A stretch of DNA of 64,000 bases, from the NCBI RefSeq assembly GCF_004210375.1, contig NC_134833.1:143274127-143338126 (forward strand), given 5' to 3'. Below the pieces are notes generated by a model. That model saw only the letters and a program-made list of their open reading frames with translations, ran no database searches and was not told where the DNA came from. Every line of letters starts with the position of its first letter. The first letter of the stretch is position 1. Shown in pieces: positions 21 to 49,700 of the stretch. The translations under genes were made by a program, and so were the position numbers. This DNA comes from Tachypleus tridentatus. Its lineage: Eukaryota > Arthropoda > Merostomata > Xiphosura > Limulidae.

Positions 21-130
21 GTGAGACAGCAGTCCGTTTACTGACTTACAACGCTAAAATCCGGAGTTCGATTCCTGGCAGTGGACAGAGCAGATAACCA
101 AGTATGGCTTTGCTGTAAAATACACAACCA
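21..130 (+). repeat. SINE family 2 (tRNA-Val-like head)
   Basis: Shows ttacaacgctaaaat, the B-box gttcgattcc and gcagata.cc..tatggctttgctgtaa, all hallmarks of the family whose full copy is at 48957-49062. The 5' part is diverged. Confidence 0.75.
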
Positions 131-650
131 AAAGTGATCAATGAGTTAGTTAGTTTGTTTGTTTGTTTTTTGAATTTCGCACAAAGCTACTCGAGGGCTC
201 AATGAGTTAGAAAAGAATATCAATGGCACATTAAAATAGTTGGAAAATGAATTATAAAATGCATAGAATAAACCAAGTATACCTCTTTCTGCACTTATTC
301 AAGAGTTTCAGCCTAAAATAAACTGATTGATTTTAATTCTATGTTAAAATAACTCTCCATCTTCTTGTGAAAAAAAACTGCATACTATCTCGTACTTGTA
401 TTCTAAGCCTTGTTTCAGATATTTTGCTAGGCCTCTGAATTGTTGTCATCAATCAAACACAGCTTCCTCTGGTTAACAAACAAATTACAACATTAAAAAT
501 ACAGGTCACAACACGTACGGTAAAAGCTGTAGCTTGTAATAAAATATACTTAAAGAGTAAGAAAACTCAAAATGAAAATATATATTGTTGAATAATGTTT
601 TTTAATATTTTATTCTAGATGTTTCGATTCCTAAAGATCTCGTATTCATT

Positions 651-898
651 ACCAGGTGTTTAGTATGCTTGACTCGCACTATGAGGGTCGCAGGTTCGAA
701 TCTTCATCCCTCCCTTTCAACCGGGTGGTGGCTTTCATTATGTTATGGTCAATCCCACTATTGTTTGGTAAAATTGTAACCCAAGTATAGGCAATTGGTG
801 GTAATGATTAGATGCCTTCCATCTAGAGGATCGATTTAGGGACAGCTAGTGCAGATAGATCTCGTGTACCTTTGTATGAAATTCGAAACAAACAAACG
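651..898 (+). repeat. SINE family 1 (tRNA-Thr-like head), diverged
   Basis: Contains cttgactcgcactatgaggg, gcaggttcgaatc, tcaatcccactattg, tagggacagctagtgcagat and a caaacaaacaaac tail. Confidence 0.8.
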
Positions 899-1240: not shown

Positions 1241-1490
1241 GTTTGAATTTCGTGCAAAGCTACTCGAGGGCTATCTGTGCTAGCCATCCCTAATTTAGTA
1301 CTGTAAGACTAAAGAGATGGAAACTAGTCATTACCATCCACTGCCAAACTTGGACTACTCTTTTACCAACGAATAGTGGGATTGACCATCACATTATAAC
1401 GCCCCCCATGGTTGAAAGGGCGAGCATGTTTGGTGTCACTGGGATTCGAACCGGGAACCCTAAGATTAAGACTCAAGTGCTGGGCCAAGT
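1241..1490 (-). repeat. SINE family 1, minus orientation
   Basis: Reverse complement of the family: tttcgtgcaaagctactcga at the left (3' end of the element), gggattcgaaccgggaaccc (B box) and gctgggcc at the right. Confidence 0.85.
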
Positions 1491-1616: not shown

Positions 1617-1885
1617 GGCCTGGCATGGCCTAGCGCGTAAGGCGTGCGACTCGTAATCCGAGGGTCGCGGGTTCGCGCCCGCGTCGCGCTAAACATGCTC
1701 GCCCTTCCAGCCGTGGGGGTGTATAATGTTACGGTCAATCCCACTATTCGTTGGTAAAAGAGTAGCCCAAGAGTTGGCGGTGGGTGGTGATGACTAGCTG
1801 CCTTCCCTCTAGTCTTACACTGCTAAATTAGGGACGGCTAGCACAGATAGCCCTCGTGTAGCTTTGTGCGAAATTCCCAAACAAA
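1617..1885 (+). repeat. SINE family 1, full copy with target-site duplication
   Basis: Starts ggcctggcatggcc and ends cccaaacaaa. Flanked by the 10-bp direct repeat CTGTCCTACT (1607-1616 and 1886-1895). The anticodon-loop-like cTCGTAA and the B-box gggttcgcgccc mark a tRNA-derived head; CGT would be a Thr anticodon. Confidence 0.92.
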
Positions 1886-3190: not shown

Positions 3191-3319
3191 GTTTTGTTTG
3201 TTTGGAACTAAGCACAAAGTCACAAAATGGCTCTCTGTGCTCTGCCCACCACTGGTATCATAGCCCAATTTCTAGCATTGTGAGTCCTCAAAAAATGCTA
3301 CTGTGCCACTGAGGGGAGG
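3191..3319 (-). repeat. SINE family 3, minus orientation
   Basis: Reverse complement shows ccccTCAGTGGCACAG, GAGGACTCACAATGCTAGAA, GGGCAGAGCACAGAGAGCC and TTTGTGCTTAGTTCC. The tail hairpin AGCACA/TGTGCT is intact. A third tRNA-like head is shared with 6715-6830, 13366-13483 and 39449-39580. Confidence 0.75.
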
Positions 3320-4807: not shown

Positions 4808-5063
4808 TGCAGGTGGTTAAGGCAATCCGAGGGTCGCGGGTTCAAATCCTCGTCACGCCAAACGTGCTCGCTCTTTCAGCTGTGGGGGCGTTGTAATGTA
4901 ACGGTTAATCCCACTATTTGTTGGTAAATGGGTAGCCCAAGAGTTGGCAGTGTGTGTGGTGATGAATAGCTGCCCTCTTAGTCTTACACTGCTAAATTAG
5001 GGACGGCTACCGCAGATAGCCCTCGCGTAGTTTTGCGTGAAATTGAAAAAACAAAACAACAAA
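4808..5063 (+). repeat. SINE family 1 with deleted anticodon arm
   Basis: Reads aggtggttaaggc directly into aatccgagggtcgcgggttc; the usual gctcgactcgt is missing. The body (caatccc/ttaatcccactatttg, agttggcagtg, gctaaattagggacggct) and the acaaaacaac tail are present. Confidence 0.88.
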
Positions 5064-5767
5064 TGTATATTCTTCTCGAGAAATTATTATATGTCGCTAT
5101 ACGTACAACTGTTGTTTCCGTAAACAGACATATTTGGTTCATTTTTTCTTTAGTTAGGTATCACAAAAACGAATTATTAGACTCCTAGTTCCTTTAACTT
5201 TTATTAATTTTTAGCAAACATTTTTTGAAAACAACATACATATACCCAAGTCTCACATCTAGATTGTGAGACTTGCACATTTTGACTTTGTATAACACGT
5301 TGACTCATGTCTTATAAAATCCTACAAAAAATATAATATCCCATTAATGTCAATGATGTCACCATATTATACTAGAAATTAATAATTTTTGCGAAGAACA
5401 GTATCAATTACAATGCAGGAGAAATTATGCAGGTTGGAGCAGGTGACACCTGATATCCAATTCTTTCATAAAGAAGTAAGGAAGAACACCATTGTTTTGT
5501 GGTTGATTGGTTTGGTGTTTCATAGCGCAAAGCAATGAGGCTATCTGCACCTTGTTTCGTTATTTAACATTATCCTTTTATTATTATTTTCTGAGGTTTG
5601 CATGCATTTTAGCACTTGTTTTGTGTGTGTGCTTTGTACGTAACAGTAATGTTTATAATTAATGTTATTATAATATTTAGCATTATAGATTTAACAACTT
5701 TGAGTCTCACCAACCACCACTACTAGGTAAGCTACAAATAAGTTGGCTTATCTATAGACAGTAGCTC

Positions 5768-6332: not shown

Positions 6333-6714
6333 TCACCCCTTGAAAAATGGGGAGTTGGCTGTGAGAAATTATAAATGTAGTGGTTAAAAAAAACCGAAAA
6401 ACTAATACACAAATGGTACTTACAGATAGATACCTTCACTAACTTTCAATACCTTATTTTGCTCTGCATGTGATAAGTTTTTTACGCTGTTTGTTCTTGA
6501 TATTTCGAAATGAAGTATTTTAGTTTTGTGTAAAACTAAACTGCAGCAAATAAATACATTTATTTGCACATTCCCTGAAATTTACACTTTATTATATGTA
6601 CGTAATGGATTGTATTCAACGTTCAGTATTAGATTGATTGCAAGTGAATTATTCTATTCAGCAGGGTGCAAAAAAACACGTAGATGTCACTTTAGCGAGC
6701 AGCTTCGTAAAAGT

Positions 6715-6830
6715 TTTTTGGTTGGAATTAAGCAGAAAGCTACACAATGGGCTATCTGTGTTCTGTCCACCACCGGTATCAAAAACAGGTTTCTAGGAGT
6801 GTTGAGTCCGCAGACATGCTGCTGTGCTAG
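6715..6830 (-). repeat. SINE family 3, minus orientation
   Basis: Contains ggaattaagcagaaagctac, ggctatctgtgttctgtcca, caggtttctagga and gttgagtccgcagacatgct, the reverse complement of the family-3 tail and head. Confidence 0.75.
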
Positions 6831-7244
6831 CTTTATGGAAAGTGAAACTAATTTAATTTTTTGCTTACAGTTAATGATTCGAGTTTACAAGTAAAATCGA
6901 TACAACGACTTTTAGAAATATGTCATACTTGAAGCACCGTAGAATTCAGGTCTCTAAATTTAGAACTTCTCCAAAATGTCAAGATATTTTTACAAGTTCA
7001 TTTTAACAGGCTCCTCACGAGCCAGTGGGCGAAATTAAAAAAAAAAACAACCTAACCGGTTTTTCTTAATTTGAACTAAAATGTTTTGGACATTTTTATT
7101 GGAAAAAAAAAAAGGCATTTCCCGCACTGTTTTAGCATTGGGACTGCGAAAACTGATATGAAGCAGTAAGGTGAGTGACATCTGTCGGTGTATCACAAGT
7201 TTAACAGCCAGGAACAAGAATCATGGAAGTCTTTAAATAACATA

Positions 7245-7949: not shown

Positions 7950-8590
7950 AGCAATGCTTATAAAGGGATAAAGAAGGTTGTAGATTGGTTAAGGACAGAG
8001 AACATTGAGCTAATCCTAAAGAAGTGTGGATTATCTCGTAACTAGGTGAATTTCACGGGAGAAGTGGTCAGCAGAGAAATAATTCTCCAGATTCATTAAA
8101 GACTGACTCTAGCTAGAGTTGGCCAACACCAAAGAACCTGTATGAAGTGAAATGATTTCTAGTTCTGTGCACTTATTATTGTCATTTTGTAAACTTCTTT
8201 CTCTGGTGTAGATCATCCTTACATAAACTATTCGAGAAAACATATATAAAATTTGTAGGATTGCTAACTGTGAACAAGCATTCAACAAATTTAAGAAGAA
8301 ATTGATCAAATTGGCCTATCAAACTCTGGTAGATCCACTTATTTTAGATATGGATATCAGTGATATTGCAGTGGGAACAGTTTTGTCACAACTACAACTC
8401 AGAAAAAAACATGTTGCCTACTATTACAAAGCAATGAATGCCACAGAAATAAAGTATTGTATAATTTGAAAAGAATTATAAATTGTTGTTTAAACTATGA
8501 ATCACTTCCATAATTATCTATACGTAAGAACAGATACATCGTAGTTGACAAGGGAAGTTTCATCAAATGACTGTCACCACTGTGCTTATT
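7950..8590 (+). pseudogene. Decayed Gypsy-type LTR retrotransposon, RT/RNase H part
   Basis: Interrupted by stops and frameshifts. Recognisable pieces are an RT end with a VDWL..ENIELILKKC and FTGEVVS-like run, and an RNase H start: CEQAFNKFKKKL, LILDMDISDIAVGTVLSQ, then HVAYYYKAMN and, after a stop, NHFHNYLYVRTD. The order matches Gypsy polyproteins. The rest of the element resumes after the LINE insert at about 9950. Confidence 0.75.
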
Positions 8591-8599
8591 ATGTACATG

Positions 8600-9945
8600 G
8601 ACTATGGTCCTGTATTCAAGGCTCAGCTCCGTGCCAGCTGGCAGTCCACTTGGAGTGAGCAACGTGACAACAAGCTTTTTCAAATAAAACCCTATATTGG
8701 GCTTCGGCCGTCTAGTTTCCGTAAGGTTCGGAAGTTGTTCTAACTAGACTATGCATTGGTCACAGTTTTTTAACTCATCGTTTCTTTTATCTGGACCTGA
8801 TGCACCAGTGTGTAGTTTGTGTAACATTCAAATCACTATCAGCCACATTTTACTTTCTTGCCATCGTTACAACTCTCAACGACGGCACTATTATAAACAT
8901 GTTCTGTCCCAGGGTTTGTCTGTAACATTGGACAGTGTTATTGGTGATGGTGACACTCTCCACCTTAATAAAGTTTTTAGTTTTTTAATGGCCATTAATC
9001 TTTTTAACCTCATTTAAGTGTTTGATATTTATTCATCACACCTTTTTAATTGTGGTTCCCTTTTCAGAGTCTCAATCTCTCTAGTTCAATTTGACATTGG
9101 AAAATGGCCAGAACATTAAATAACTCGACACCAGGACTGGAAAGGCCAACTTCAGGTGATTAATGCTGCTGTTTGAACAACCCGTTAGTCGTCCTGGCGA
9201 GTTGTTATTACTATTTTGCTGCATGTCTTTTAACACTTTTATTACTTTACCTTTTGGTACTGGCCATAATGACACATAACCCTGAACCAGGACTGGAAAG
9301 ACCAACTTCAGGTGACTGACGGTGGTTCTTGAACTTACCTGTTAGTCTTCCTGGCGGGTTATGATCATTACCATTCTGCTACAGGAAGTCCTTTACAACT
9401 TTGTAGACTGGATGTCAACATTGGTTTTATGCCATTTTATGTTTTAATTGCTGTTTTGTTTAAACCTTTGTTTCCTTTTACGAATTTTACTACATTTATT
9501 TTACTTTTACCTTTCTACAGGACATTTGGCTAATTTTTATTGCGATTTTGCTATATGTCTTTTAACACTTTTCTTATTTTACCTTTTAATAATGGCTGTT
9601 ATGACAACATAACCCGGAACCAGGACTGGAAAGGCCAACTTCAGGTGACTGACGGTGGTTCTTGAACTTACCTGTTAGTCTTCCTGGCGGGTTATGTTCA
9701 TTACCATTATGCTAGAGAAAGTCCTTTACAACTTCTCTTACTCTTTTCTCTCTTAACATTGTAGACTAGGTGTCAACATTGGTTTTATGTTTTTTTCTGT
9801 TTTTCAATGATGTTTTGTTTCACCTTCATTTCCTTTTATGTATCTTACTACATTTAATTTATTTTTACCTTTTTACTGGGCGTTTGGCGCAGAGAGCCTA
9901 GCTGCTTTGTGCCATAAAACACTAAATCAATCAATCAAATGACTA
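8600..9945 (+). mobile_element. 3' end of an I/Jockey-like LINE inserted in the Gypsy fossil
   Basis: The coding tail shows SWQSTWSEQRDNKLFQIKPY, then (after a frame change) TRLCIGHSFLTHRFLLSG and a zinc-knuckle-like CSLCNIQITISHILLSCHRY, followed by a stop at 9015. The 3' UTR has three copies of a ~75-bp motif and ends ggcgcagagagcctagctgctttgtgccataaaacac plus an aatc repeat tail. The 3' hairpin (9886-9913) matches the SINE tails in this window. It is 5'-truncated, as is usual for LINEs. Confidence 0.82.
9130..9696 (+). repeat. Three copies of a 75-bp motif in the LINE 3' UTR
   Basis: Copies at about 9130-9205, 9289-9364 and 9621-9696 each read accaggactggaaag(g/a)c, caacttcaggtgactgacgg and gttagtcttcctggcgggtt. 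Spacing is irregular, with AT-rich spacers that are themselves partly repeated. Confidence 0.85.
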
Positions 9946-10760
9946 AAATTATATGCTATTCCTAACCAGGAAGCAGAAACTCTTGCAAATAAACTTGTCA
10001 ATAAAGAGATTTTAAGATTTGTTATGCCTCTGGGACTTCACTTGGATCATGGTACAAAACTTTGAATCAGACTTGCCAGTCTAAATAGCTATATTTGAAC
10101 GAACATCAGAAAATGTAAAGCAGTTCTTCAAGATACCAGCAATACACCATAATTATTGATGGTTCAGGAGTAAGTCCCATCAGACCTTCTTTACTCTCGT
10201 CCAGGCAACAGTTGCTCGGTAAAGTCTTATACAAGATATGCAGAGAAATTAAAGAACATCGTAAATGTAACATGACTTTACATGGGAACAATTTAATCAG
10301 TAAGTGATAAAATGAAATGTTACTATGATATTAATATTGAAAACACTGTATTTAATTGTGGTGACATGGTATATCTGTACAGTCCTCAGCACAAGAAAGG
10401 ATGAAATTAAATGTTTAAGCAGGTGCTTGAAAGGGTCATATGGTGTACTGAAAAGAATCATTCACGTCTTGCTAAATCCAGATGGATAATCAATACAAGC
10501 CAAAGGTCAACCTGTCTGATTGTTCTTAGAAATATGTCAGTGAGAGAACAGCCAATGGTAACTCAAGAGAACATGTCAATAAAGACTCAACCTGTAGAAA
10601 AACCTTGAGTTCATTTTAAGGTTTTTTTCAGAGGGCCATCAACATTGAAGCCACTAATGGATTCATCTGACCACATATCTAGAGAGAAATCCTTCGGTGA
10701 CAAGAAACCATCTCATCCATATACCGTGCGCCTTAAGACCACCAAAAATATTGTTGAATG
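9946..10760 (+). pseudogene. Decayed Gypsy element, integrase C-terminal part
   Basis: After the LINE the Gypsy remnant continues. At about 10300-10405 it reads KCYYDINIENTVFNCGDMVY then LYSPQHKKG, the chromodomain-proximal end typical of Gypsy integrases (GD-V-LY-P). Frames are broken and no LTR was recognised. Confidence 0.65.
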
Positions 10761-10867: not shown

Positions 10868-11017
10868 GTTTCGAATTTTGTACAAAGCTACACGAGGATT
10901 ATCTGTGCTAGCCATGCCTAATTTAGCAGTTAAAGACTAGAGAGAAGACAGCTAGTCATCATCATTCACTGGCAACCCGTGGGCTACTCTTTTACCAATA
11001 AATAATGGGACTGTCAA
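10868..11017 (-). repeat. SINE family 1, minus, 5'-truncated
   Basis: Contains gtacaaagctacacgaggat, ctagccatgcctaatttagc, gggctactcttttaccaata and aatgggactgtcaa, then stops before the tRNA-like head. Confidence 0.82.
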
Positions 11018-13106: not shown

Positions 13107-16100
13107 GTGAGAATTTTCGTCTTTTGTTTTGTATTTTTATAAAATCAGAATGCATCTGAGAAATACAGAAAAAGAAATGAGTATTTTTTTTTCCAAATTC
13201 GAAGAGACTTTAATAATTGCCATTATATAATTATAATCAGGATACTAAATTTTTATGTTTTAAGTTTAACTTAAATTTAACAAAAAAAGTGAAACTGGTT
13301 CCAGCAAAGCTAGAAGACGTAAAACTAGTAATTTGAATAACAGTATAACTTAAAAAAACATGCTTCCTCCCCAGTGGCACAGCAGCATTTCTGCGGACTC
13401 ACCACTAGAAACCGAGTTTCAATACCCGTGGTTTGCAGAGCACAGATAGCCCATTGCTGAATTCTAAACAAACAATCAAACAAATTAAAAGACATAGAAT
13501 ATAAACTTAATCAGCAAACTACAATAGTTGACTAATACTAACAAATAAAGAAAAAAACATTGTTCCAACTTATAATTTTCTTTCACACTACTATTAGTTT
13601 GAAGTATTTCTTGATGACGAAATACAGTCTGAAGTAGTGTTACATATAATATACTGAAAGTTAAAACAATATAATAATTAATTGAAAAAACATAGTAAGT
13701 TAAAGTAAACTGGATGTAAGCCACTGTAATGTAAGTTAAGGATATTCTTCTTGTGGAGGATACTACGTTTGTTACAAGACTTTTCTTTATTATAACCAAC
13801 ATTCACAATATTGTAAATCTAGGTTTGCATGTGTGACACATGTCAACATTAACAGCAAAATCATATAACCTTTTGTATAACTGTATGCATTTCTAAACAT
13901 AATGTGACTTTACTTAAATTTAAAAACTTCCACAAGTTCCAGAAGACACTTATGGAAGATATGGCCTATATTGTCAACATTTATGGAATTGGATGTATAA
14001 TTTCAATACAGTTTGTGTTTGTTATCAGTGGGTATGATGTGTATTACATATTTTGTTAATAAGTGAAATTTTTGTGTACATTTTAACTATTTTATACTTA
14101 TTGCTATAAACAAAATGCTATTGTGTTGTGTACAAATACAACATATTGGCTATATTAGATAATTTTTGTGATAACACAATACCAGTGTTTTTAGTCATAA
14201 ACAGTGTTGACAGTTCATAACAAAACAAATAAAAGTGGAATTGAAAAATGGGAGTAATAAGCCAGTCAACTGAGATTTCAGCCTGTAGATATGCTGTTGA
14301 TCTGTCTTATAGAAATTAATATTGCCTTATGACGTTTTTGTTTTTTAATAATATAACTGTGATATACATGTAATACACCTAAGCAACTTTTGTCTTTAGG
14401 CCGTGTAATTACCAGAACATCACCGAGAATTCCAGTTCAATCCTTGGCTGGAGTAATCTCCAGTAGAAATATATCAGAGAAAGCAAGATATACTATGTCT
14501 TATGAAACACTTGATATTACATCCCCCCATGAACGAATCCTCCATGTTCAGTTGAATCGACCTGACAAGTTGAATGCAATGAATAAGGTATTCTGGAGGT
14601 ATGGGAGGATCATATACTTGTATTAGTTGTTATAGAGAAATTGTTTTGTAAGCAAATACAGGACAAAGGTAATTATACATTGTTTTATAGCAGTGGTTGC
14701 CAACTTCAGGTCTGCAGATATGATTTTGCCAGTCTGCAAAAATATCCAGTTGAGGAAAAGAAAGGAAAAAGTTAATAGTAATAGGTACTTAATAATATGT
14801 ACAATTATTTTTTAATAAATATTTGCTTTATTAAAATTCTAATTCTTTCAAAGTTATTTTACAACCTTTTGTTTATCTATCTGTATTCTGTGTACTTTGT
14901 GTCTATAGGTCACATACTTCTAATAGTTCATAATTGTTTTATAGAGACTAGTGTCTTTGGAGTGTAAAATGGTGGGAGTTGCTGCTTTGAAGTACTTGTT
15001 TTCATTAATAATTTTTGAATAGTATATTTACAGTTTTAAGCTGGTCTTTTCACAACCAAAACACATCACAATACAAGTGCATCTGGTAAAATATTTGCAT
15101 GTCTAAGGATGTAATTATATGTCTTGAAAAAATTGGTCACAATTATTGTTACATCTTTAATGAATTCAATGCTAGTAATTAAATACTGGCTATCAAGGAT
15201 AAAGAGTTCTCTTTTTAGTGTGAAAGATAAGCAGTAAGTATCCTATAAAGCCATTGTAGTGTTTGTTGTATGGGGATGTAGGTTTAATACCTTTTTAATT
15301 TGTGTTTTATGTACTCAACTTTTTGTAAAAGAGCTGTCCTCTGTTAATTCTGGGCAAATGATAAGACTATAATACTGGACAAGTTTAACCAGACTGAGGA
15401 GTAGTCAAGTGGGAGGTCTCAGACATTTTATATAGTTTAAGATCAAATGTAGTCATATGAGTTATTAGTATTATTAAATAAGATTCTGTAACTTTTTAAG
15501 TGACTTATTGCTACATGGAATCACTCAAAATATTTCTTGTATATAAAAGTCTGATTTTTGATTTGTGGAAATAGATAGTGCTCTCAGAGGGTTGTCTAGT
15601 GTATATAATCTATAGGGTGGTCCTTTGAAGGCAATTGAAATTTTACCTTGTAACTTGCACATGTCTGCATGTTTGAAATATTCTAGAATGCTTCAGAATA
15701 TTATAATTGGCTGTGTATGGGTTTAGATTTTTCCAGAATGTTTTAGCATATTATTATTATGGAATAATCTTGCACATTGTACATGGAATATCATGTACAC
15801 AACATGACAGTAGTTTCTAGAAAAAGTGGATTGTCTGCTAGTCTTTTTGCTTGGAGCAGGAGTAAACCAACTCTTAGATGTTTCAAAGATGATTTTTATC
15901 ACTGGAGAGACTCCAGCTTCTGTTGTGAAATATTTTCCGGAAGGGTAGAAAGCCACCAGTCATGTGAAAGGCAGTTTGCTTTGACACAGTAGCAAACAAA
16001 ACTGGTCACATAAATGGAGCATTGGTATTGTTAGAACAAAGGTTAAATATTTGACATACCAGCATTATATCTTGGAACTTGTCTTGGCATGTGTTTACAA

Positions 16101-28100: not shown

Positions 28101-31100
28101 TATCATTGGCCATTGATAAGATTTTAAATCGGTTAGAAACTTGCATTGTCGTCCTTACTAATTTGTTTAAAGTCCTATAAAGGGTTAGTGATGGACAGAG
28201 CCTTCAAATAAAAGGATGTGTGCTCATTCACAAGCTGAGACTTTGGGTTAATATTATGAGATTAGCAAGTAAGTTATTTCTAGCCCTATAAAATTTCATT
28301 TGATGAGAACTACCAAGTGATTGAAAGGAGACTTAGATTCTCAATATTAGTTTCAATCTAGTGCTATGGACTTAATATTTTAGTAACTTCTTCAGTTTGA
28401 ACTTTGCGTGTTGAATCATACATGTTTGTGTGCAAATATATATTTCTCCAAGTATGTTGCACCTTTATAATCTTGTAGTTTTCTTTCTTATCTTCAGCAA
28501 GTTGACTTGGGATTTGCTCCAGACATGGGAACACTTCAAAGAGTTCCTAAAGCTATAGGAAACAACAGCATGTTGAGAGAAATGGTTTATACAGCAAGAA
28601 AGGTGGAAGGTTTTGAAGCTAAAGAAGTGGGTGCTTTGTCTTATTTTGAAAAATACTGATAAATGCGAATTTTAGTAAGAAATTTAGTTTTAAGATATGA
28701 TGACATTGGTGCAAAATTGAAATAAAATATTTGGCAAACACTGCTAGAAAAACAAGGCTTATTAATTTTGTCATCTGACTTCAACAGTGTGATTTTGATA
28801 CTCAGATACTTAGCATAAGAATAGCTCTGATTATCATTTGATTTCATTATAAAGAAGTGTTTGAAATCAAAGTCACTGGTATTTTTTGTTGATATGTTAT
28901 TGTTTACCAAGTCTTAACTTTGGTTTAGTGCTAGGTTATGTGATGTAACCTCTTATTAAGGACTTGGTGTTTTTTTATTTCTTTTAATTTTGATTCGTGA
29001 CTGCTGTGGTAATAGAATTAGTCTGAATATTTCTTTTTCTCAGCATTGCATCAGTGTTAACAGGACACACTTTTTGTGTAGATCACTTTAACAGTTAATC
29101 TTTCCTCTTGTTGGTGAGTGTAAATAAGTTGCAAACAAACTTACAAGTGAGAGATATTCATTATACTCTGATTTTTATTCGTGGAAATGTACATCTATAT
29201 AAAATTAACATAACTTTTTATAATGATGTTATGGAGTTTAAGCACATTTTTATCAATCTATCTACAGATGGGACTGATCAGCCGGGTTTTTCCCAACAAG
29301 GAAGCTATGTTATCAGAGGTCGACAGGTTAGCTGAGTCCATTGCTTCTAAGAGTCCAGTAGCTGTTCAGGGCTGTAAGGTGGCTCTTAACTACTCACGAG
29401 ACCACACCATCAGTGAGGGACTGAAGTTTATGGTGAGTCCCACAAGTAGTCACTAAAGTTCTTTCATTCGGTATTAGTTCTGATATCCACAGTATGAATA
29501 GTTGTTCACATGCTCACATGATGTATAGAATGGGAGAGCCACCAGCTGGAATCACTCTTTTTTCTTATAATGTGAATTATGTCATATTTTTTCACAGGTT
29601 GGATTTCAAATTTTTTCATTTGAAATATATAAGAATAAAAAATTTATGGGGATCCCAGAAGACAAAATAGAATCCCATTCTGATAAATATCTGCTGACAA
29701 ATGACTCCCAAAGTTGTGTTGCTATTCCACATCTGAGATTAAGGATGACAAGGTGTTCAAATACTATACTCATGATGATGTGTCCTGAAGTAGGGTGTAT
29801 GATCTCAAGAAATACATTCTTACAATTTTAAAGTCGTAAAAGCATATTTTAACAAGCTAGTTACTTTTCTTCAAGAAACATAACATTGGTGTCATGTGTG
29901 ATTGTATAATAAGGAATGACCACAGTAATTTCAAAAATTCTTGACAAAACGTGTGTGGAATCAACACACACTAAATGATCCTACTACAGCTATTGAATAG
30001 CACAACAAAACTATTTTTAAAGCTAACTTTCTTCTTATTCAGATGCTCCTATGTAAATAAAAAATATGTTTTTAAATATGTATGTGCTCTTAGTACAAAA
30101 TGAATATGCTGAATGGGTTTGCTGTCAAACAAAATAGTATTTTCTGTCAGCGCTGAAGATAACATGCAAAGGTACGTATATTAATAAGAATGTTTCTTAA
30201 TATACACTTTTACATAACACTTCATCAGTACAAGGTGACAAGAACCATATGTTTGATTTGTTTATTTTTTAATTTTACACAAAGCTACATGAGAGCTATC
30301 TGAGCTAGCTGTCCCTAATTTAGCAGTGTAAGACTAGAGGGAAGGCAGCTAGTCATCACCACCCACCACCAACTCTTGGGCTACGTTTTTGTCAACTTGT
30401 GCGCCCCGGCTGAAAGGGGGAGAATGTTTGGAGTGATGGGGATTCAAATCCGTGACCCTCACATTACAAGTTGAGCACCTTAACAATCTGGCCGGCCATG
30501 TTGGGTCGACCCGTATATTTGAAAGATATTGTGTAGCTACTTGGTTACCTTTATGTGTACAATTATTCATGATGACTTTTTACTTATTGATGTGTTTGTG
30601 ATTGCATTAGGTTTGGTCAGGAATTTGTGCAGATTCACCCTGTAAATAAATATTAATATTTATTGATTTACTAATTTACATTTTTGCAAAACAAGCAATG
30701 TACTTAGGAAAATCCACAAAAAACATATTGTGGCTTAATCTTCTGAGAAGCAAAGCTAAAAAAATTCCTATAAGCCATTTATATTTTTTTTCTTACCCTG
30801 TGTAACTAGTGTTTCTACAGAAACAGAGGAAGAATATTGCTTTCTGAACCAGTCTATACAGAAGTGTCAGTGCTGTTATTTTTAGTTTCATTATTTCATA
30901 CTTGACAAAAATATAAAACTTTTTCCTTTTATTGTTATTCATTTTAAATGCTTTTGTTTTCAGTTTTGTTATAATACCTGAAACTTTTTTCCAGTTGTTG
31001 TCATCCATTTTGCTAACCTGTTATGGTTATACTAACATTGTTTTAATTATCTTTTGTTTCCATTCATTAGTAATTCTTTCATTTCTTTCACCTTCAGCTT

Positions 31101-33859: not shown

Positions 33860-34110
33860 CGAGGCTGTGAACACGAGGATCTATGGTTCACACTCCGTTT
33901 CTTTAAAATCATACTCCACACTTTTGTGTCATGGACTGGTATAAGAGAGAGAGAGAGAGAGAGTCAAGTCTTACCATTCAACTAGAGTAGCCCAAAAGTT
34001 GGCAGTGATGCTGTTAAGTGGCTGCATTTCCTCTAGTCCGTTAGTTGAAAATAAGAGACGGCAGCACAGATATCCCTTGTGGATCCTAGCATGAATGTCT
34101 ACAACAAAAC
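33860..34110 (+). repeat. Degenerate SINE family 1 with a GA microsatellite
   Basis: gagtagcccaaaagttggca, ctctagtccgttagttg and gagacggcagcacagat show an eroded family-1 body. A (GA)n tract of about 20 bp lies at 33942-33962. The head (33860-33900, ggttcacactcc) is barely tRNA-like. Confidence 0.6.
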
Positions 34111-35049: not shown

Positions 35050-35317
35050 TGGCTAACTGGTCAGAGCGCTCGACTCGTAACCCGAAGAGCGTGGGTTCAT
35101 ATCCCGACACAGCCAAGTATACTCGCCTTTTCAGGCGTGGAGGACGTTAGAATATTATGGTCAATCCCACTATTCGATGGTAAAAGAGTATCCCAAGAGT
35201 TGGTGGTAAATGGTGATGACTACCTGCCTCTCCTTTTGTCTTTCACTGCTTGCTTAGGAACTGCTAGGGCAGGTAGCTCTCGTGTAGTTTTGGGTGAAAT
35301 TCAAAACAAATCAAACC
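35050..35317 (+). repeat. SINE family 1
   Basis: ggctaactggtcagagcgct, cgactcgtaacccgaagagc, gggttcatatcccg, tcaatcccactattcg, agagttggtggtaaatggtg, cgtgtagttttgggtgaaat. Confidence 0.9.
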
Positions 35318-35585: not shown

Positions 35586-35840
35586 AGGCCCGGCATTACT
35601 AGGTGGTTAAGGTGCTCGACTGGTAATCCGAGGGTCGCAGGTTCGAATCCCCATCTCACCAAACATGTTCGACCTTTCAGCCATGGGGCCGTTTAAAGGT
35701 TACCGTCAATCCCGCTTTTCATTGGTAAAAGAGTAGCCCAAGAGTTGGCAGTGGGTGATGATGACTAGCTGCCTTACGTTGCTAAATTAAGAACGGCTAA
35801 CTTAGATAGCCGGCGTGTAGCTTTGCGCGAAATTCAAACA
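35586..35840 (+). repeat. SINE family 1
   Basis: ggcccggcattactaggtgg, cgactggtaatccgagggtc, gcaggttcgaatcc, with a short deletion in the body (gctgccttacgttgctaaat). Tail aaattcaaaca. Confidence 0.92.
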
Positions 35841-36309: not shown

Positions 36310-36587
36310 GGGGCATGGTCGGGTGGTTAAGGCACTCGACTCCTAATCCGAGGGTCGAGGGTTCGAATCCCCGTCACACCAAACATGCTCGCCCTTTCAG
36401 CCATGGGGATGTTATAATATGACGGTCAATCCCACTATTTGTTGGTAAAAGAGTAGCCCAAGAGTTGGCGGTGAGTGATGATGACTAGCTGCCTTCCCTC
36501 TAGCCTCACACTGCTAAATTAGGGACAGCTAGCACAGATGGCCCTCGTGCAGCTTTGCGCGAAATTCAAAACAAACCAAACCAAACA
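36310..36587 (+). repeat. SINE family 1, full copy with target-site duplication
   Basis: Flanked by TGAAAGTGGG (36300-36309 and 36588-36597). The head has ctcctaatccgag (anticodon loop changed from ctcgtaa), gggttcgaatcc, a full body and a caaaccaaaccaaac tail. Confidence 0.95.
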
Positions 36588-36776: not shown

Positions 36777-36902
36777 TTTTTTTGTTTGTGTTTTTTTCTT
36801 ATAGCAAAGCTATATCGGGCTATCTGCTGAGCCCACCGATGGGAATCGAACCCCTGATTTTAGCGTTGTAAATCCGGAGACATACCGCTGTACTAGCGGG
36901 GG
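36777..36902 (-). repeat. SINE family 2, minus orientation
   Basis: cttatagcaaagctatatcg, ggctatctgctgagcccacc, gggaatcgaacccctgattt, gcgttgtaaatccggagaca, ccgctgtactagcgggg. Confidence 0.92.
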
Positions 36903-36928: not shown

Positions 36929-37177
36929 TTGTTTTTAATTTCGTACAAAGCTACATGAGGACTACCTGCACTAGCCGTCCCTACTTTAGCAGTTCAAGGA
37001 AGGCATCACCCACCGCCAACTCTTGGGCTACTATTTTGCCAACGAATAGTGGGATTGATCATAACATTATACCGCTCACACGGGTGAAAGAGCGAGCATG
37101 TTTGATGTAACGAGGATTAGAAATCGCGACCCTCATATTACGAGTTGAGCGCCCTAACCACCTGGCCATGCAGAGCC
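36929..37177 (-). repeat. SINE family 1, minus orientation
   Basis: ttaatttcgtacaaagctac, gtccctactttagcagttca, cacccaccgccaactcttgg, atagtgggattgatcat, ccctaaccacctggccatgc. It lies 27 bp after a family-2 copy in the same orientation. Confidence 0.92.
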
Positions 37178-38564: not shown

Positions 38565-38849
38565 GGCCTGGCATGGCCAGGTGGGTTAAGGCGTTCTACT
38601 CGTAATCTGAAGATCGCGGATTCGAATCCCCATCGCACCAAACATGTTCGCCCTTTTTGCCGTGAGGACGTTATAATGGTACCGTCAATCCCATTGTTCG
38701 TTGATAAAAAAGTAGCCCAAGAGTTGGCGGTGGGTGGTGATGACTAGTTGCCTTCCCTCTAGTCTTACACTGCTAAATTAGAGACGGCTAGCGCAGATAG
38801 TACTCGTGTAGCTTTGCACGAACTTCAAAAACAAAACAAACAAACAAAC
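38565..38849 (+). repeat. SINE family 1, full copy with target-site duplication
   Basis: Flanked by AAACAGTCCAA (38554-38564 and 38850-38860). ggcctggcatggccaggtgg head, ctactcgtaatctgaag, full body, and a long caaacaaacaaac tail. Confidence 0.96.
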
Positions 38850-39448: not shown

Positions 39449-39580
39449 GTTGTTTGTTAAATTAGCACAAAGTTGTACAACAGGTTATCTGTGCTCTGCC
39501 CACCACGGGTCTCGAACACTAACTTGTAGGATTGGAAGTTCGCAGTTATAACGCTGTGCCATTGGTTGGTGGAAGGGGAG
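39449..39580 (-). repeat. SINE family 3, minus orientation
   Basis: ttagcacaaagttgtacaac, ggttatctgtgctctgccca, ccacgggtctcgaacacta, ttataacgctgtgccattgg. The outer tail stem AGCACA/TGTGCT is intact. Confidence 0.78.
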
Positions 39581-40072: not shown

Positions 40073-40194
40073 ACCTCCGCTAGTGCAGCGGTAAGTTTAC
40101 GGGTTTACAAAGCTAAAATCAGGGGTTCGATTCCCCTCGGCGGGCTCAGCAGATAGCCCGATGTGGCTTTGCTGTAAGAAAACACACACAAAAC
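40073..40194 (+). repeat. SINE family 2
   Basis: cctccgctagtgcagcggta, gggtttacaaagctaaaatc, aggggttcgattcccctc, ggcgggctcagcagatagcc, then aacacacacaaaac. Tail hairpin 40147-40174 (CAGCA ... TGCTG) is perfect. Confidence 0.93.
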
Positions 40195-40797: not shown

Positions 40798-43700
40798 GTA
40801 AGTTTACAACCATTGAAAAGTTTATTAGAGAAACGCGTCTTTCTCGGATTCGTTCTTTTAAAGGGAATCAAAATATTTTCTCTACATTAGTACTAGTAGT
40901 TAACTTACACTGCTGCTTCCTATTTTCAGTCAGTTATACTTATTGTGTTTTCAGTTTCAACGGGTTATCGAACAGTAAAGCCCCTGGCGTCAGTGTAGTG
41001 CACCATCGATCTGTAATGTGTGTATTTTTTCTTGGAGCATAGCCACATCGGGCTATCTGCTGAGTCCACCGCGGTCTGTAGTAATCGAACTATTTGAAAT
41101 CATCGCATAACTAGATTTTAAGAATACAAAATGATGATTATGACGAAAAGAAGGCACTAGTACCTTTCCTTCTGCGAATGTGTGGTATCAAATCACGGGT
41201 TTTAGTTCAATTTTTTACCACCCAACATTAGCACCAAATTTTTATAAAGATTAAACAAAACACAACTTAAAAATAAAGTTATCTAAACAACATAATTCTT
41301 CCACCTCTAAAGAAATATAGACAAATGTTGGTATTTGTTAGATTTGTATCGGCAGACAAGTAGTATGCTATATATATATTTTGTTTATACCATATTTAGA
41401 GCAAGCACGCCACTGTCAATTGTGGTAGCGTTCTATGCATTTTTAAAGTTCAAATGTTTTTTAATTTTTCTTACAAAAATATAGATTTTATAACCGTATA
41501 GCATAAAAGTTATTAAATACATATGGCTTATCGTGTGCAACACCCTCGGTGGACTCAGCAGATAGCTTGATGTGGCTTTACTATAACAAAACACATGCAC
41601 ACTCGTGTGCAACATGATGCGTAACATTCATATTTCGCAGCGTCCTCAAAGAAGTGATTCGTTAAAAATCAGCTGTTGACTTACATTTTACCAAAATTTT
41701 TAATAGTAAAATTATATGTATATATATATATATATTAAAATTCTGGCTTTCAGCTATAAATATTAAAATTGCTAAAATTCTAATATGCTCATTGTTTATA
41801 TAATGTTTTTGTTGCCAGTTCATTAAACTAAATATTCTTTCAGGACGCCGACCAGAAGATGGCGTTCCAGATATGACTGTGATAAGTGATATTGATGAAA
41901 ATGGTATCAATACAAATTTAAAAGTGAGATACGACAAGGATGAAATATATGTATCCTTTATGTTTGTTTGCTAAAATAGTAAGGACGTACATCAGGCTTA
42001 TACGAATAACATTATCCAACAAAAGCAGATTAAAAATCATAACCATCTAGCCTGGGACTGGTGGTGTGGAATACATACCACCTGACGCGCGAGATCTTTC
42101 TGGAATAAGTTTTCCTGTTATACTTTGTGTACTAGACAAGTAGTTTTTATGTTTTGTTTTTCAGGTGCTCTATTTCTAGGTAAACACTCTAGATAAATCT
42201 CTGAGGAGACAGGCAAGTTCTTGAAAATTCTGAACACCATAATTCATACATACACACACACGAACATTTAAAAGATACATCCTTCAAACCAAAACTATAT
42301 ATACTTAGATGTACCCACAAAAAAATATATATTCCAATTCATTCACACATTATTTAAGCTAATGCAAAGGTTGCTTTTATGTACAGTAGGAAACCAGTAA
42401 AGCTTAACTGCCTGTTCTATGAAAAATATATAATTTAATAAGTACCAAAAGTTTTCAGCTGTTATATATATATGTGTGTGTGTTTGTTGTCATCTTCGAC
42501 AAAATTGAACTGCTTGTGGCATTTTATTGGTTCTGTTCACTGTTAAGTAAAAGCAAAAACCAAGAAGTTATATTCTTCTTTTTGTATATTTTTTGAAGGT
42601 CATGGAGAAGATAAGTGAATATTATGAGCATTTTGTTCCTCGGAAAACAAGTTTTAGAAAAATTCCACAACCTTGGGAGTTTATAAGACACTTTAGTGTT
42701 TATCACAAGAAACATAATTGCCAATAAATCAGAGCATTTATAAATGGGCTACTCTATAGGCGATCTGTTTTAAATTTGGTTTGTTTTATGGTACAATTCA
42801 ACTCTAATGTTGATCCACCAATTTCAGTAGTACCACTTACCTAGTGAGTATCAAAATTTGAGTGTTATGTTATTTAAGCTGAAACTTAATGTACTAATGA
42901 ATTTAGTTAAGTAAAATATACATTAAATTTAAAATTTTTGTTATTAATATTGTAAAACATTGTTCAGTACGGTCTTATTTGTCAATTTAGACAGCATGAA
43001 CTAACGGTTTACCCAATCCACATCGTTTATAAACCACGTAGGAGTTGTTTGTATAAGTACACAGCCCAACTTCGTGACGTATTATTTTATAGTACGGTCT
43101 AGCAACGAAACAAACGTTGGCTAAGAGGATACTATCTCGAGCACGAATCTTGTACGGAACTTCCGTATGGTACCAACGTCTCATAGGTCGTTGAACAACA
43201 AAAATGCACATTGTTTCGTATTCCCCTACAAGCTGTTTATCACACAATTGTAAACATGAAGTCACTTAGTACAGTGTCAGTAAACTTTACATATATCTTT
43301 AAATAATGACCTACATTATAGTTTTCTGACGACTGTGACCAACTTTCTGTTTTTTTGTTAAATAGAATCTAGGGTGAGTCTTTCGAGTAATTCCTAGCAC
43401 TTTCCGTTTCTAGACCACATTTCCGAGACTGCCAGGATAGGGTGGCATGTTTCCGCCCTGTCTCTTGAATGTATTTTATAGACTAGTGGCATAAATATAC
43501 ATATACGGATTACAATTATTTTATAAAGGGTTTACTAATACTTTCACAGAACTAGGGTTGTAAGGGTTAGCTGAGAAGAAACGGCCAATTGACACACACA
43601 TGGTGTTATGTAACATCTTAAGTATATTTCTCAGTCGTTGAAAGAAAAGCTATCTTGAAAAAAATACCATATTTTATTTTCTTCACGAATTATTAGAAAG

Positions 43701-46700
43701 TTTTGGGAGTTTTCCTCTCTCTATCGTGAAAATTATTAATATAAACTGATGTGTTATGATGACATAAATTCTTGACCAGTGTTTAAGAAAGTAAACGACC
43801 GCCAGGTTAGAGTTGTTGAAGAGTGTTTTCCACTTATCAAATAATATATATTTGTTAGGTTAAACACGAACATTAAGAGAGACTAATTAGTTCGACAATC
43901 CAGTAAAAGCGTTGTACATGTTAAAAACACGATTGTTCCACATCAAAGAACAGTTGATGAATGCTAATTTTTGCATCAGTAGACAGGCAATATAGTGTAA
44001 CTAGAACAATCTAAAACTAAAAGATAGCAAGTGCCAACAGTGTCAATATTCTGTGTATCATTTTGAACGTTTGAAACCGATCACATTCGGTTAGTTCTAT
44101 GCATAAAACTTAACATTTTATGTGTAGTTTGTCGTTAATAAACACATCATAATTTGTTTACAAGGATCAACAGTAAAATATGCGATATCTGGTATAAATT
44201 TAGTGTTACAGTAAAATAGTAATCTATTTACTTATAGTTGGAATTTTTAATGTATATAAAACAGTAAAATACGTTTTATCATTTGAAATAAATGATTATT
44301 TGATGAGTTATTTTATTAAATGCCTATTTCTGCTACTTTGGGACACTAAGTTCTCGTAAATTAGTAATTATGTACTTTTTGATTCAAGGCTGTAGTCCTC
44401 AATTGTAAGCATTAAAAGATTTGTCAAAGTTTAACCCAGCACTAGGTGGCTCCCAACTCGAATGAATGAACACGTAAATATTACCAGAAATTCTTCAAAG
44501 TCAACCACATGTTTAACAGTAGCGTTGCAGTAAAAGACAATGGTAATTTTAGTAAAGTTAATAAAGCTGGAATAGAACAGTAGTTTAAAGTTTGTGAAAA
44601 TCGTGGGTTTGCTGCTCTGAAATCATACATATTTAATTCTCTTGACCTTAAATTTGCTAATTAATGTTAACCCTAATAATAAATATATACCATATCTAGT
44701 GGAAGCTTCCAGATTATGGGGTATACAATGCATTGTTGGATTTCATCCAGTGTTTTAAAAATGTACCTATAGTAGAACAAACTCATAAACTCTACACTTT
44801 TTTTTTTACAAAGATATTTTAATATTGTTTTTTTGAGTTTTAGTTTTAATCTTGAAACACCACAATAATAATTGAAGTGATGCGATTTATTTTTGCGATA
44901 CACATTCGAGACCGAATGTATAACACGATTGTCCAAACGATTATGAAACAATGCTCATTGTTAGAAGCAAATCAATATTTTCTTTAACAAACAGATAAAA
45001 GTAAAAATATACATTTATTTTAAACGAGGGATTGGTTGATTCTTACAATAAAGTGTCTAAAGATTTAGTGGGTATAATTCTTAAAATAAAACAGTATATA
45101 TTTTCAAAGCTGAGCAGGTATTGTCTTTGTCAACTATTGTTTCAGTGGTTTCTTTTAACGAGCATGCTTGATACTGCCTTGTCAAGTCGATAAAATTATA
45201 TGAATGACGTCATACGTTATTAGCAGGTGAATCAGACGTTTTGTCTCAACGTGTTTGGCTGTAGTGAACATACATACCTGGTATTATTAGGTTCTGTGAA
45301 AACTGGTAATATCGACCAGCTCAGAATGCATGCTGTTAAAAGCTCTACACTCAGATTAACCCGGAACTAGGTTTTACATCTTTCATGCATGTGACATTCT
45401 CCTATAACACATGAGATTTGTTTATAAAAATATAATACGCCATTTTTATATAGGCTATACTGCAAAGATAAATTGACGATATTGTCTAAGGCGATATAAA
45501 TATATTTGATTCGTTAAGAGTAATTGGGATTGCGTCGTTACTGACGTGTTGGTCAACTTTCCCATCTGGCTATTTCTTTCTAACTAATATTTTTATTATG
45601 CATAAGATAATACACATATCTAATAAAAGGAAGTATAGTTGGTTTTGTCAGTTCCTTGTTTTGATATTAATAAACAACTTATTTACTTGAGACACCACTC
45701 GTAGTTGGATTGACAAGTAGGAATACTGAGTTTGAAATATTTACATTTGTGTCTTATCTTAGGCTTAGAAAGAATAGTTAACAATGCGTAACCTCTATAT
45801 TACGGTATGCGTTTAGTGTTTTAAAATCAATTTATAAAAAAAAGATGTCGAAGGTTTTCTGTCCTTGAAGTGCAGGATGATATAACAAAGTTTTTAAACT
45901 ACCGGAAAACGTCACGTCACGCATGAAAGCGACATGTATACATACTATGTATGTATGGGTCCATGCATGCAAGCCAGAGACTATTGATAATCGAAATCAG
46001 TTATTAGCCAAGCGTCCGCTTTTTCACTTGGAACGCTTGAATGTGAAATAAAAGTTACCATGAAAGTTTAAAGTTTTTATTGTAAGTTGAAGAGTTATTT
46101 TTATTGCTAAGAAATAAATAAAACAATATATGTTATTTCAGAAAACATAGTTGTTTTTTTTATTCAAACCAGGCCCGGCATGGCCACGTGGGTTAAGGCG
46201 TTCTACTCGTAATCTGAGGGTCGCGGGTTCGAATCTCTCATCGAACCAAACATGCTCGCCCTTTCATAAGTGGTGGCGTTATAACGTTACGGTAAATTCC
46301 ACTATTCCTTGGTAAAAGAGTAGCCCAAGAGTTGGCGGTGGGTGATGATGACTAGCTGCTTTCCCTCTAGTCTTACACTGCTAAATTAAGGACGGCTAGC
46401 GCGGATAGCCCTTTTGTAGCTTTGCACGAAATTCAAAAACAATAATATTGAAACCAACGTGTTACCATTACGGCTTCACTGAGGCAAAAAAAGACAGTTG
46501 TTAACTGAATTTAGATTTATACAAATGATTTCAAAATAATTCGATTCTGAGGAAGGAGGTAAACGTCACAGGAGAATATCACATCGTTGTTGTCAAATTA
46601 TATTTTACTTGACGTAAGGGATTGTGAAAGTACCTGCAAGAGAAACATTATATTTATCATTAGTATTAGGCTTATTAATTTATTAAACACTACATTCTTT

Positions 46701-49700
46701 ATCTAGTTCTTTAAGGATTTTCAAGAAGTAGCAGTTTGTGTAACAATATAATTCCAACCACGCTCTATTCATAACATCCATTACCAACGACGTGTTTCTC
46801 TCAGTTTACAACTCTTCAGGCCGATTGTGATGTAACAACATACGTACCGTGTTTCTCCGATAATAAGACCTACCCATAAAATAAGACCTAGTGTGATTTT
46901 TGGGGATAGTTTTAATATAAGCCCTACCCTTAAAATAAGCCCTAGTTAAGAGTGGCAGGAAGAGGAAAGAAATAAAAAAAAATAATTTATTAATTAGTTT
47001 AATAGTTAGTTAATTAGTTTGTTTAAGTATTAATCAGTTAGTTTAATAGTTTAATAATAGTTTATTTTAAATGGTTAGTTTAATAGTTTAATAATAGTTT
47101 ATTTTAAATGGTTAGTTTAATAGTTTTACTTTGTAACTTCATTTTTTTAATATATCAAAATAAGACATCCCCCGAAAATAAGCCCTAGTGTCATATTTTG
47201 GAGTGAAAATTAATATAAGCCCTGTCTTATTTTCGGAGAAACACGGTAGACACCTTTTACTAGTAGACCAAGAATAATTACAGTTATATTTGTCATAAGA
47301 AAGAAACTGAGGGGGGAAGCACACAAAGACAATATTATACTATTTAAAGCACAAATAAAATATATTGTTATGCTAATTAAATGTGAAAAAATTACAATTC
47401 CATTGTGATTTTAATGTGTAACTGTGGTTTATTTTCTGAGATAAAAAACTGACAGTTGATAATAACATTTGGTGTCATAAGACAAGCCATATCAATTATA
47501 CCTTGTTTGTCAACAAAATTCTCACCTATAGCACTGTCTTCACGGTCTAATTAATGTGTAAACAGCGCTATGGTGTTCGTTAATTCCGTGCTTTCTAGTT
47601 CTGCCAGTTTTACCAAAGCATACAGAAGCACAAGACCTGCATATCAAATTTGAGACGACGTTTTTGTGGTTACGCTACAACCTGCACATTTGTTTGCAGG
47701 TTTACTGCATGTTTTGGGTTTAATAACTACGTTCTAAGTTATTTAGATTTACTGGTAATATGTAAAGTTATGTAAGTACGACTTCTTTTTCTACACGTTG
47801 TATTAAACATCTTTATTGCAATGAAGTCAAAGTCAGATTAAATAATATTTATCAGATCGGGCACTTGAATTTTCGAACCTCTTTATCAGCCAAACAATGT
47901 TCGAGAAATTCATAGAAATAAAAGCTTGCTCGAATAAAAAAACAACAAACAAACAGTTTTTAACATTTTAATAAACGTCTGAAAAGTTTATGTGAAAGTT
48001 TTGCGTTCTTTATTTATAATTTGGAAATGGGTTGGTATTCGTTTTTCTAAAACTGTGGTGTAAGATCTTTCGATTTATAGCATATAACTCACATTCATTA
48101 CCATAACTTTATATTCAAATTTAGTATTTCTAGGTAAAGTTTGTAAAAAAATTGATCAGAAATTTAATAATAAGCAAATTGTTTATATAACATTGTATAG
48201 TAAAGTTGTCAGACTTTGTGATTGCTCTAGTTACATCCTAGTATGTTTTTAACATACTTAACTATTAGACATACACTGGAACAATCCTTGTTGCAGTAAA
48301 TCCATATAAAGAACTGGATATTTATGACTTGGTAAGTTCTTGGTAATTCTTTTGTTCTTATTGTGATTTGTAATGGATAGGTGTCGTTTTGAAACTGTAT
48401 TACACAAGGCTAAGGATTAATAATTACTCATTATTGAAGCTGAGAATAAAATATAAATGTGGCATTTTCAAACTTTCGCAAAATAGATTTTGTCTATTTC
48501 ATTGTTGATAATTATTTTAAATACAATTTGAAAAAATAGATTTAATAAATGTAAGAGAAGTATAATTGTACACGCTGTGAATAACTTTGTAATTATTATT
48601 ATTTTAAAGGACTGGGTTTTCAACTATAACGGTCAGAAAATTGGCCACCAGGAACCTCACGTGTTTGCTATATCGGAAGCAGCCTATTCCAATTTACAGA
48701 ATAAAAACCTAAACCAATCTTGCGTGATTAGCGGAGAGAGTGGCGCAGGAAAGGTAATTAAAAACTTATTTTTATTCGTTGGAACTTTAAAGTTCCATTA
48801 CAAACATATTAAAACAAATTCTTACAGTAATGTTAAAGGAAAAGTATGGCGATATGTATCTTCACCTAATACTTAGTAAACCTATTTGAACTTTGAACGT
48901 TTTTTTTAAATGAATTATGTTTAATTGTGTGTATGTTTATCTTATAGTAAAGCCACGCCCACCGCTAGTACAGTGGTATGTCTCCGGATTTACAACGCTA
49001 AAATCAGGGGTTCGATTCCCCTCGGTGGGCTCACCAGATAGCCCATGTGGCTTTGTTATAAGAGTAAAGCCACATCGGGCTATCTGCTGCGTCCACCGAG
49101 GGGAATTCAACCTTTGATTTTAGAATAGCAAATCCAAAGACTTACCGCAGTCCCAGCAGGGGACTATATTTAATTGACACGGAAGTTTTACAATTTAATA
49201 TTTCTGCGTCGACTATGTGGTATAAAAATAAAACTTATTTTATTTGAATAACGGTTGTTTATATGCCGTATAACCTATAAAAGTGTCATTGAATCATGGA
49301 ACGTGAAATGGCATGCAGTTAATATTAAAGTGAAATATTTAACATATCGCAGACACATAATTTTAGTGAAATAACTTTACGTTTTGGTGCTGTTTCACGA
49401 TATTCTTAAGTGTTTTTATTATAACTTAAACAGTACCAGAAAAGTGGTCCCTAGGTTGGACAGCAGTAAGTCTTCGGATTTACAATGCTAAAATTGTGGG
49501 TTCGATTCACCTCGGTGGACATAGCAGATAGTCCGATGCGGGTTTTCTATAAAAACACACACAGACACACACCAGAAGTGAGTCAGGTGGTTATAAATTT
49601 CATTTCCTACTGTGTTACTTGTAAAGTACTTTATTTCAATATCAAAACTAAGTGGGGTAAGAACAAAAATGTACGAGGTAAATCATTAACTGGAATATGG

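Follow-up and report, generated by a model that had tools for sequence, protein, structure and literature searches.

A LINE and three SINE families in a horseshoe crab locus

The window, which is the whole analysed stretch of 64,000 nucleotides from Tachypleus tridentatus, contains a host gene for a short-chain dehydrogenase (11865-12908, minus strand) and myosin head exons (48532-48873, 55091-55687 and 62414-62674, plus strand), for which the best match among solved structures is myosin Va. It also contains copies of a LINE and of three SINE families, whose 3' ends carry the hairpins collected in Table 1.

The cited LINE copy, described earlier as I/Jockey-like, which is a putative assignment, is reduced to the C-terminus of ORF2 and the 3' UTR, and no reverse transcriptase is kept. 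The translated remnant displays a GHxxLTHxxLL...CxxC...H...C pattern (CCHC-like, by eye), which we take to be the ORF2 C-terminus; a Pfam search of the remnant gave no significant match. A short pattern from the C-terminus was matched by 20 viral and 137 prokaryote-contig stretches, none of which was a relative by tblastn. Viral contigs were also scanned for the LINE, family-1 and family-2 tails, the family-1 core and the LINE 3' UTR. One of these scans gave a match, which lies within an ORF resembling a phage ribonucleotide reductase and was put down to chance; no match came from the remaining four, nor from a scan of prokaryote contigs with one pattern. The two imperfect tandem units of the 3' UTR (9195-9530 and 9527-9888) both stop at TTTGGC, where the hairpin starts, and the hairpin itself is single, not duplicated with them. 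The direct repeat around the copy is identical at 11 of 11 positions, and 1 of 200 random placements scored as high; at its start, some bases could equally belong to the repeat of the LINE tail. On both sides of the LINE lie decayed pieces of an LTR-type element (8170-8572 and 9934-10350), with the LINE inside the element; these pol-like fragments are assigned to the LTR type on our assumption.

The preliminary description did not include another LINE-type tail, which lies on the minus strand (5551-5524) and is called the second LINE tail below. Its alignment with the cited LINE covers 49 nt, starting at the first hairpin base and continuing to the end of the terminal repeat (z 12.7). This tail has no recognisable LINE body upstream and no clear target-site duplication.

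The family-1 SINE measures about 275 bp; its 12 copies of alignable length have a mean identity of 78%. Family 2 is about 115 bp long (8 copies, 76% identity), and its putative tRNA-like head almost abuts the hairpin. Family 3 is similar in size to family 2 (4 copies, 71% identity; 3187-3322, 6708-6835 and 39445-39575 on the minus strand and 13364-13475). Matches to Rfam models, both below the gathering score, were obtained for family 1 (tRNA, 23.1 bits at 36309-36381) and family 2 (tRNA-Sec, 28 bits at 48957-49030, with an ARAGORN prediction at 48957-49032); for the family-3 copies, no tRNA stood among the Rfam and ARAGORN matches listed. Two arrangements of copies were observed in passing. 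An inverted pair of family-2 copies (48970-49151) matches the Rfam family MIR2646 (E 1.5e-6, 45.6 bits against a gathering score of 245), and at 36778-36972 (minus strand) a family-1 SINE is followed, immediately after its tail, by a family-2 SINE.

Table 1. LINE features and hairpin-bearing 3' ends in the window
Feature	Position	Strand	Remarks
5'-truncated LINE copy with hairpin	8573..9933	+	direct repeat ATCAAATGACT at 8562-8572 and 9934-9944
Frameshifted ORF2 C-terminus remnant	8573..9017	+	three-frame translations
LINE 3' UTR with two imperfect tandem units	9195..9888	+	spacing 332-358
LINE 3' hairpin GGCGCA-GAG-AGC-CTAGCT-GCT-T-TGTGCC	9886..9913	+	
LINE terminal tail	9914..9933	+	AATC-type repeats at end
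Second LINE-type 3' hairpin GGTGCA-GAT-AGC-CTCATT-GCT-T-TGCGCT	5524..5551	-	LINE-like tail to about 5500
Family-1 hairpin, best-scoring	1840..1870	+	SINE about 1616-1888; duplication CTGTCCTACT
Family-1 hairpin	36531..36561	+	duplication TGAAAGTGGG
Family-1 hairpin	38790..38820	+	duplication AAACAGTCCAA
Family-1 hairpin	51020..51049	+	duplication CCTATTTCCGG
Family-1 hairpin	1251..1281	-	duplication CAAAAACTT
Family-1 hairpin	46398..46428	+	covariance model
Family-1 hairpin	848..878	+	outer pair 4 U-A replacing C-G
Family-1 hairpin	5009..5039	+	covariance model
Family-1 hairpin	35266..35296	+	covariance model
Family-1 hairpin	35799..35829	+	covariance model
Family-1 hairpin	10879..10909	-	covariance model
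Family-1 hairpin	30276..30306	-	covariance model
Family-1 hairpin	36942..36972	-	outer pair 4 U-A replacing C-G
Family-1 hairpin, decayed	34063..34093	+	E 1.6; excluded from 26-row shuffle test
Family-1 SINE truncated within hairpin	150..198	-	TCAATGAGTTAG copies at 138-149 and 199-210
Family-2 hairpin	40146..40175	+	SINE about 40071-40190; duplication up to 13 bp, one mismatch
Family-2 hairpin	36801..36830	-	descriptor scan, covariance model
Family-2 hairpin	87..116	+	covariance model
Family-2 hairpin	49031..49059	+	duplication AGTAAAGCCAC; ARAGORN head 48957-49032
Family-2 hairpin	49061..49090	-	inverted relative to 49031..49059
Family-2 hairpin, weak	41555..41584	+	E 2.8
Family-2 hairpin	41034..41063	-	missed by model R1
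Family-2 hairpin	49521..49550	+	missed by model R1
Family-3 hairpin	3211..3241	-	descriptor scan, covariance model
Family-3 hairpin	6731..6762	-	covariance model
Family-3 hairpin, broken inner stem	39464..39495	-	covariance model
Family-3 tail, hairpin 3' arm deleted	13439..13464	+	excluded from 26-row shuffle test

The hairpin, its parts and its fold

The hairpin previously described at the end of the LINE (9886-9913) is present, and those of the SINE families lie at or near the positions given for them: 1840-1870 for family 1, 40147-40174 for family 2, and 3241-3211 and 39495-39464 on the minus strand for family 3. The family-2 example, however, is atypical, as its outermost C-G pair occurs in only 1 of 8 copies, and the 3' arm of the family consensus reads TGCTAT. 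A descriptor consisting of the outer stem, GA(T/G/A), AGC, a loop, (G/A)CT, T and the outer stem was run over both strands. It gave 10 matches in the 64 kb, and 9 of these lie at 3' ends of repeats; in 200 first-order Markov sequences, the mean count was 0.59 and the highest 4. The tenth match (55855-55886) falls outside every repeat found in the window and is taken as chance. The fold of the LINE hairpin was equalled or bettered by 2 of 31,986 sampled segments of 28 nt, both elsewhere.

In a set of 26 hairpins, a G follows the outer stem in all 26 rows, with a T opposite it in 25. The bulge is therefore best taken as two nucleotides adjoining a G.U pair. The triplet made up of this G and the bulge is GAT in 22 rows, GGT in two and GAG in two, and the loop varies in length from about 6 to 10 nt. 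The inner AGC/GCT stem had been described as constant, and its three pairs are indeed formed in 26, 22 and 23 of the 26 rows; in family 3, however, the outer stem is better kept than the inner one.

Folded as bare sequences, the second LINE tail and the consensus sequences of families 1 and 2 adopt the shared hairpin at minimum energy. This also holds for a family-3 variant one base off its consensus, while the true family-3 consensus forms the outer stem only (-6.6 versus -5.4 kcal/mol for the shared structure). In the cited LINE, a rival register, in which GAG pairs with CUU around the loop CUA, is better by 5 kcal/mol (-15.4 versus -10.4 kcal/mol). When a few flanking bases are added, the LINE keeps its own register, and the second tail and family 2 keep the shared hairpin. 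With 5' flank, family 1 prefers a GGCTA/TAGCC hairpin and family 3 another register.

A covariance model (R1) was trained on 13 family-1 and 3 family-3 hairpins, and the window was searched with the filters off; owing to a shortened calibration, the E-values are rough. The top ranks went to the 16 training copies and to the truncated copy (match at 178-208), in which the 5' arm does not belong to the element. Next came the cited LINE (21.2 bits, E 0.00056), followed by the second LINE tail at 19.4 bits (E 0.0021). The earlier proposal that a structure-bearing 3' tail links the LINE with the SINEs, as in stringent LINE-SINE pairs, is supported. Five of the 8 family-2 copies are found with E-values of 0.016 to 0.23, and the next match in the window has an E-value of 1.4; the remaining copies comprise one at 41557 (E 2.8) and two that are among none of the matches listed.

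When the structure was removed from the model, the LINE fell to 5.6 bits (E 1.7), behind the first non-repeat match (E 1.3), and the second tail to 6.8 bits (E 0.72); the best three family-2 copies reached about 11 bits (E 0.03). When the structure was slid by two columns, the LINE scored 8.6 bits (E 4.2), against 11.8 bits (E 0.41) for the second tail, and E 0.09 was reached by a non-repeat match. Since the LINE match is lost without the structure or with a displaced one, the link to the LINE rests on pairing. Family 2 is found equally well by sequence (for its best three copies, E about 0.03 by sequence versus 0.016-0.04 with structure), so the structure adds little there.

The window also holds fragments of another LINE (about 57441-60046, minus strand) with endonuclease-, reverse-transcriptase- and C-terminus-like pieces, presumably CR1-like; Pfam gave no significant match for them. 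Downstream of these fragments, to 56900, the hairpin was not found by eye, and R1 gave no match there with E <1.

Covariation, relationships and insertion

The preliminary description stated that the outer stem varies in sequence while its pairing is largely kept. This is seen between families, in few events; within families, it is not. In the hand register of the 26 hairpins, 115 of 156 outer cells are paired. When the 3' arms were shuffled over all rows, the observed pairing was reached in 4 of 5000 shuffles, a figure that overstates the significance because the rows are not independent; with shuffling within families, it was reached in 3495 of 5000. When each family was reduced to its consensus, outer arms paired better with the partner of their own family than with those of other families: the actual assignment ranked first among the 24 permutations of four families, and with five families it was reached by 4 of 120. 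Column-wise shuffles of the fitted 24-row alignment were not clearly exceeded by the covariation score (125 of 500), the paired cells (58 of 500) or the cells changed on both sides (53 of 500), nor were they when families 1 and 3 were taken alone (224 of 500).

The change is clearest at outer pair 4. All 8 family-2 copies have A-U there, the 3 family-3 copies and the LINE have C-G, and the second tail has U-G; the 13 family-1 copies have C-G in six cases, U-A in two and no pair in five. At outer pair 3, the 3 family-3 copies have A-U, and 7 of 8 family-2 copies have G-C. Pair 5 forms in 17 and pair 6 in 9 of the 26 hairpins. The R/Y scatter among family-1 copies has the appearance of CpG decay that followed insertion.

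Families 1 and 3 have homologous tails: their alignment spans 51 nt and takes in AATTC and the AAAC repeat (z 14.4). This leaves three tail groups: the LINE tails, family 2, and families 1 and 3 together. The independent covariation events are therefore few. When each tail group is represented by its consensus, 9 of 12 possible pairs form at positions 3-6, for which random arms give a chance of 0.014. Between the tails of families 1 and 2, the alignment has a z of 5.9. The second LINE tail aligns with family 2 over 37 nt (z 4.1), with family 1 (z 3.1) and, more weakly, with family 3 (z 2.7); the alignments with families 2 and 3 run past the hairpin.

The tRNA-like heads had been described as unrelated to each other. 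This holds for families 1 and 3 (z -1.4 to 1.6, 12 copy pairs) and mostly for families 1 and 2 (z 0.0 to 4.3, 12 pairs), but not for families 2 and 3, whose consensus sequences align from head to tail (z 11.3, reached by 0 of 300 shuffles). Copy by copy, the z-values for these two families range from -0.1 to 9.8 over 16 pairs. These alignments suggest that family 3 is a chimera, with a head like that of family 2 and a tail like that of family 1.

Direct repeats were examined at 22 elements and called clear when reached by no more than 3 of 200 random placements. Such repeats flank 9 of the 22 elements, with some bases ambiguous with the tail repeats; at the other 13, no clear target-site duplication was found, and these include the 4 family-3 copies and the second LINE tail. 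The duplications measure up to 11 bp for the LINE, 9-12 bp for six family-1 copies, and 11 and up to 13 bp (one mismatch) for two family-2 copies. The comparison of duplication lengths suggested with the original observation thus gives agreement between the LINE and the SINEs where the duplications are clear, that is, in 9 of 22 elements and for families 1 and 2 only. The family-1 copy at 150-198, truncated within its hairpin and bounded by a 12-bp duplication, is of the kind that target-primed reverse transcription starting at the 3' end would leave.

A probable recognition element and its possible users

The hairpin is probably a handle by which a copying enzyme grabs the RNA of the LINE and of the SINEs. 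The explanation that we favour, with reasonable though limited confidence, is that one LINE lineage uses it for recognition at the 3' end, and that at least two sister LINEs of this lineage provided the SINE tails. Several LINE subfamilies of this lineage would carry the hairpin, each with its own terminal repeat. Family 2 would have acquired its tail from a LINE like those in the window, and families 1 and 3 would have taken theirs from a sister LINE ending in hairpin-AATTC(AAAC)n, which is to be expected from the differing post-hairpin sequences; within the 64-kb window, a LINE with an AAAC tail was not seen. The RNA would consist of an outer stem of 4-6 pairs, the sequence of which may drift while pairing holds, and a core with a nearly constant G.U, a two-nucleotide 5' bulge (mostly AU, and AG in the LINE), a three-pair AGC/GCU stem and a loop of 6-10 nt. 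The reverse transcriptase of the LINE would bind the bulge and the stem and begin target-primed reverse transcription in the downstream repeat. The data show that the structure is common to these elements, that the tails are homologous and that the duplications agree in length where they are clear; binding by a protein, an as yet unseen sister LINE and the direction of transfer are what we infer here.

It had been suggested that one LINE mobilises all three SINE families. In its strict form, the LINE family of 8573-9933 would do so via the hairpin alone, with any terminal repeat. The hairpin common to the LINE and the SINEs and the agreeing duplication lengths are in keeping with this proposal, but the sequences behind the hairpin are not. 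The LINE ends in AATC repeats, families 1 and 3 in AAAC and family 2 in AC, and the segment of AATTC followed by AAAC repeats that is common to families 1 and 3 is in neither LINE tail. In stringent LINE-SINE pairs, the repeat after the stem-loop is usually common to both partners, a customary rather than a defining feature. In this case, the tails share a stem-loop, more weakly in family 3, the consensus of which forms the outer stem only, and the LINE and the SINEs have no common terminal repeat. Because the terminal repeats differ, a single LINE for all three families is unlikely, and sister LINEs fit better.

It is similarly doubtful that the hairpin is simply inherited sequence, in which pairing is a by-product with no present role and the likeness to the LINE is partly chance. 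Such an origin would agree with the sequence homology that links family 1 to family 3 and family 2 to family 3, with the absence of covariation within families, and with the inner stem that is not kept in the family-3 consensus. It would also agree with the comparison of the cited LINE with every SINE consensus, which by sequence alone is not significant (z 0.3-1.6). With structure included, however, the match of the LINE to the model is significant, its score being lifted from 5.6 to 21.2 bits, and the descriptor matches stand well above their control. The matches of the second LINE tail to families 1 and 2 likewise speak against chance. It is very improbable that another fold is the functional one, such as GGCTA/TAGCC in family 1, possibly as a switch overlapping the shared hairpin: family 1 does adopt it at minimum energy once a few flanking bases are included, and GGGCT/AGCCC could form in family 2, but the shared hairpin persists in family 2 and in the second LINE tail when flank is added, and no more than three such pairs can be seen by eye in the LINE.

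A further reading is put forward tentatively. The handle of the whole lineage may be a code of bulge and stem, not of the loop: sister LINEs that differ in their terminal repeats would retain one hairpin with a drifting outer stem, so that free exchange of SINE heads and tails would be possible. If this were true, family 3 would be a natural swap, with a family-2 head on a family-1 tail.

Comparable systems have been described. In monocots, an L1 lineage, ZmSINE2, ZmSINE3 and sorghum SINEs have a common 3' hairpin with compensatory changes, according to the available part of the review by Ohshima (PMC3747384). By analogy, the horseshoe crab hairpin appears to be a case of the same kind. In the monocots, as apparently here, a 3' end of about 50 nt is common to LINEs and SINE families, and a variable stem is combined with nucleotides conserved elsewhere (PMC3747384). 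However, the loop UCU and the 3' flank CGAG are conserved in monocots, whereas here it is mostly the bulge and the inner stem, and the loop varies; the LINE type is also different, being L1 in the monocot system and another here. For ZfL2-1 and ZfL2-2 of the L2 clade, the stem-loop is required and bound, and stems can be exchanged if paired but loops cannot, as reported in the accessible text of Hayashi and others (PMC4176376), which also reports from other work that UnaL2 needs a bulged nucleotide. The 3' stem-loop and the bulge are points of likeness, with the protein recognition established there and presumed here; the loop sequence decides recognition there, and here the loop is the least conserved part. 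The present case would add a further LINE-SINE partnership held by RNA structure, in which recognition apparently lies in the bulge and the stem, not in the loop.

No account of these SINE families was found in the literature covered, subscription papers and repeat databases being outside its scope, and a search of paper texts with strings of the repeat sequences gave no match. The literature on horseshoe crab and chelicerate SINEs yielded nothing on these families, with PMC7815833 giving, in its available text, only the overall repeat content. The exchange of heads and tails is known from hagfish, where SINEs with different heads or bodies occur on one LINE tail, and one body occurs with different tails (PMC7245038). 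The hagfish tails derive from RTE and CR1, and the main text of that paper uses neither the term hairpin nor the term stem-loop. According to the same paper, a beetle SINE seems to be mobilised by an I-clade LINE.
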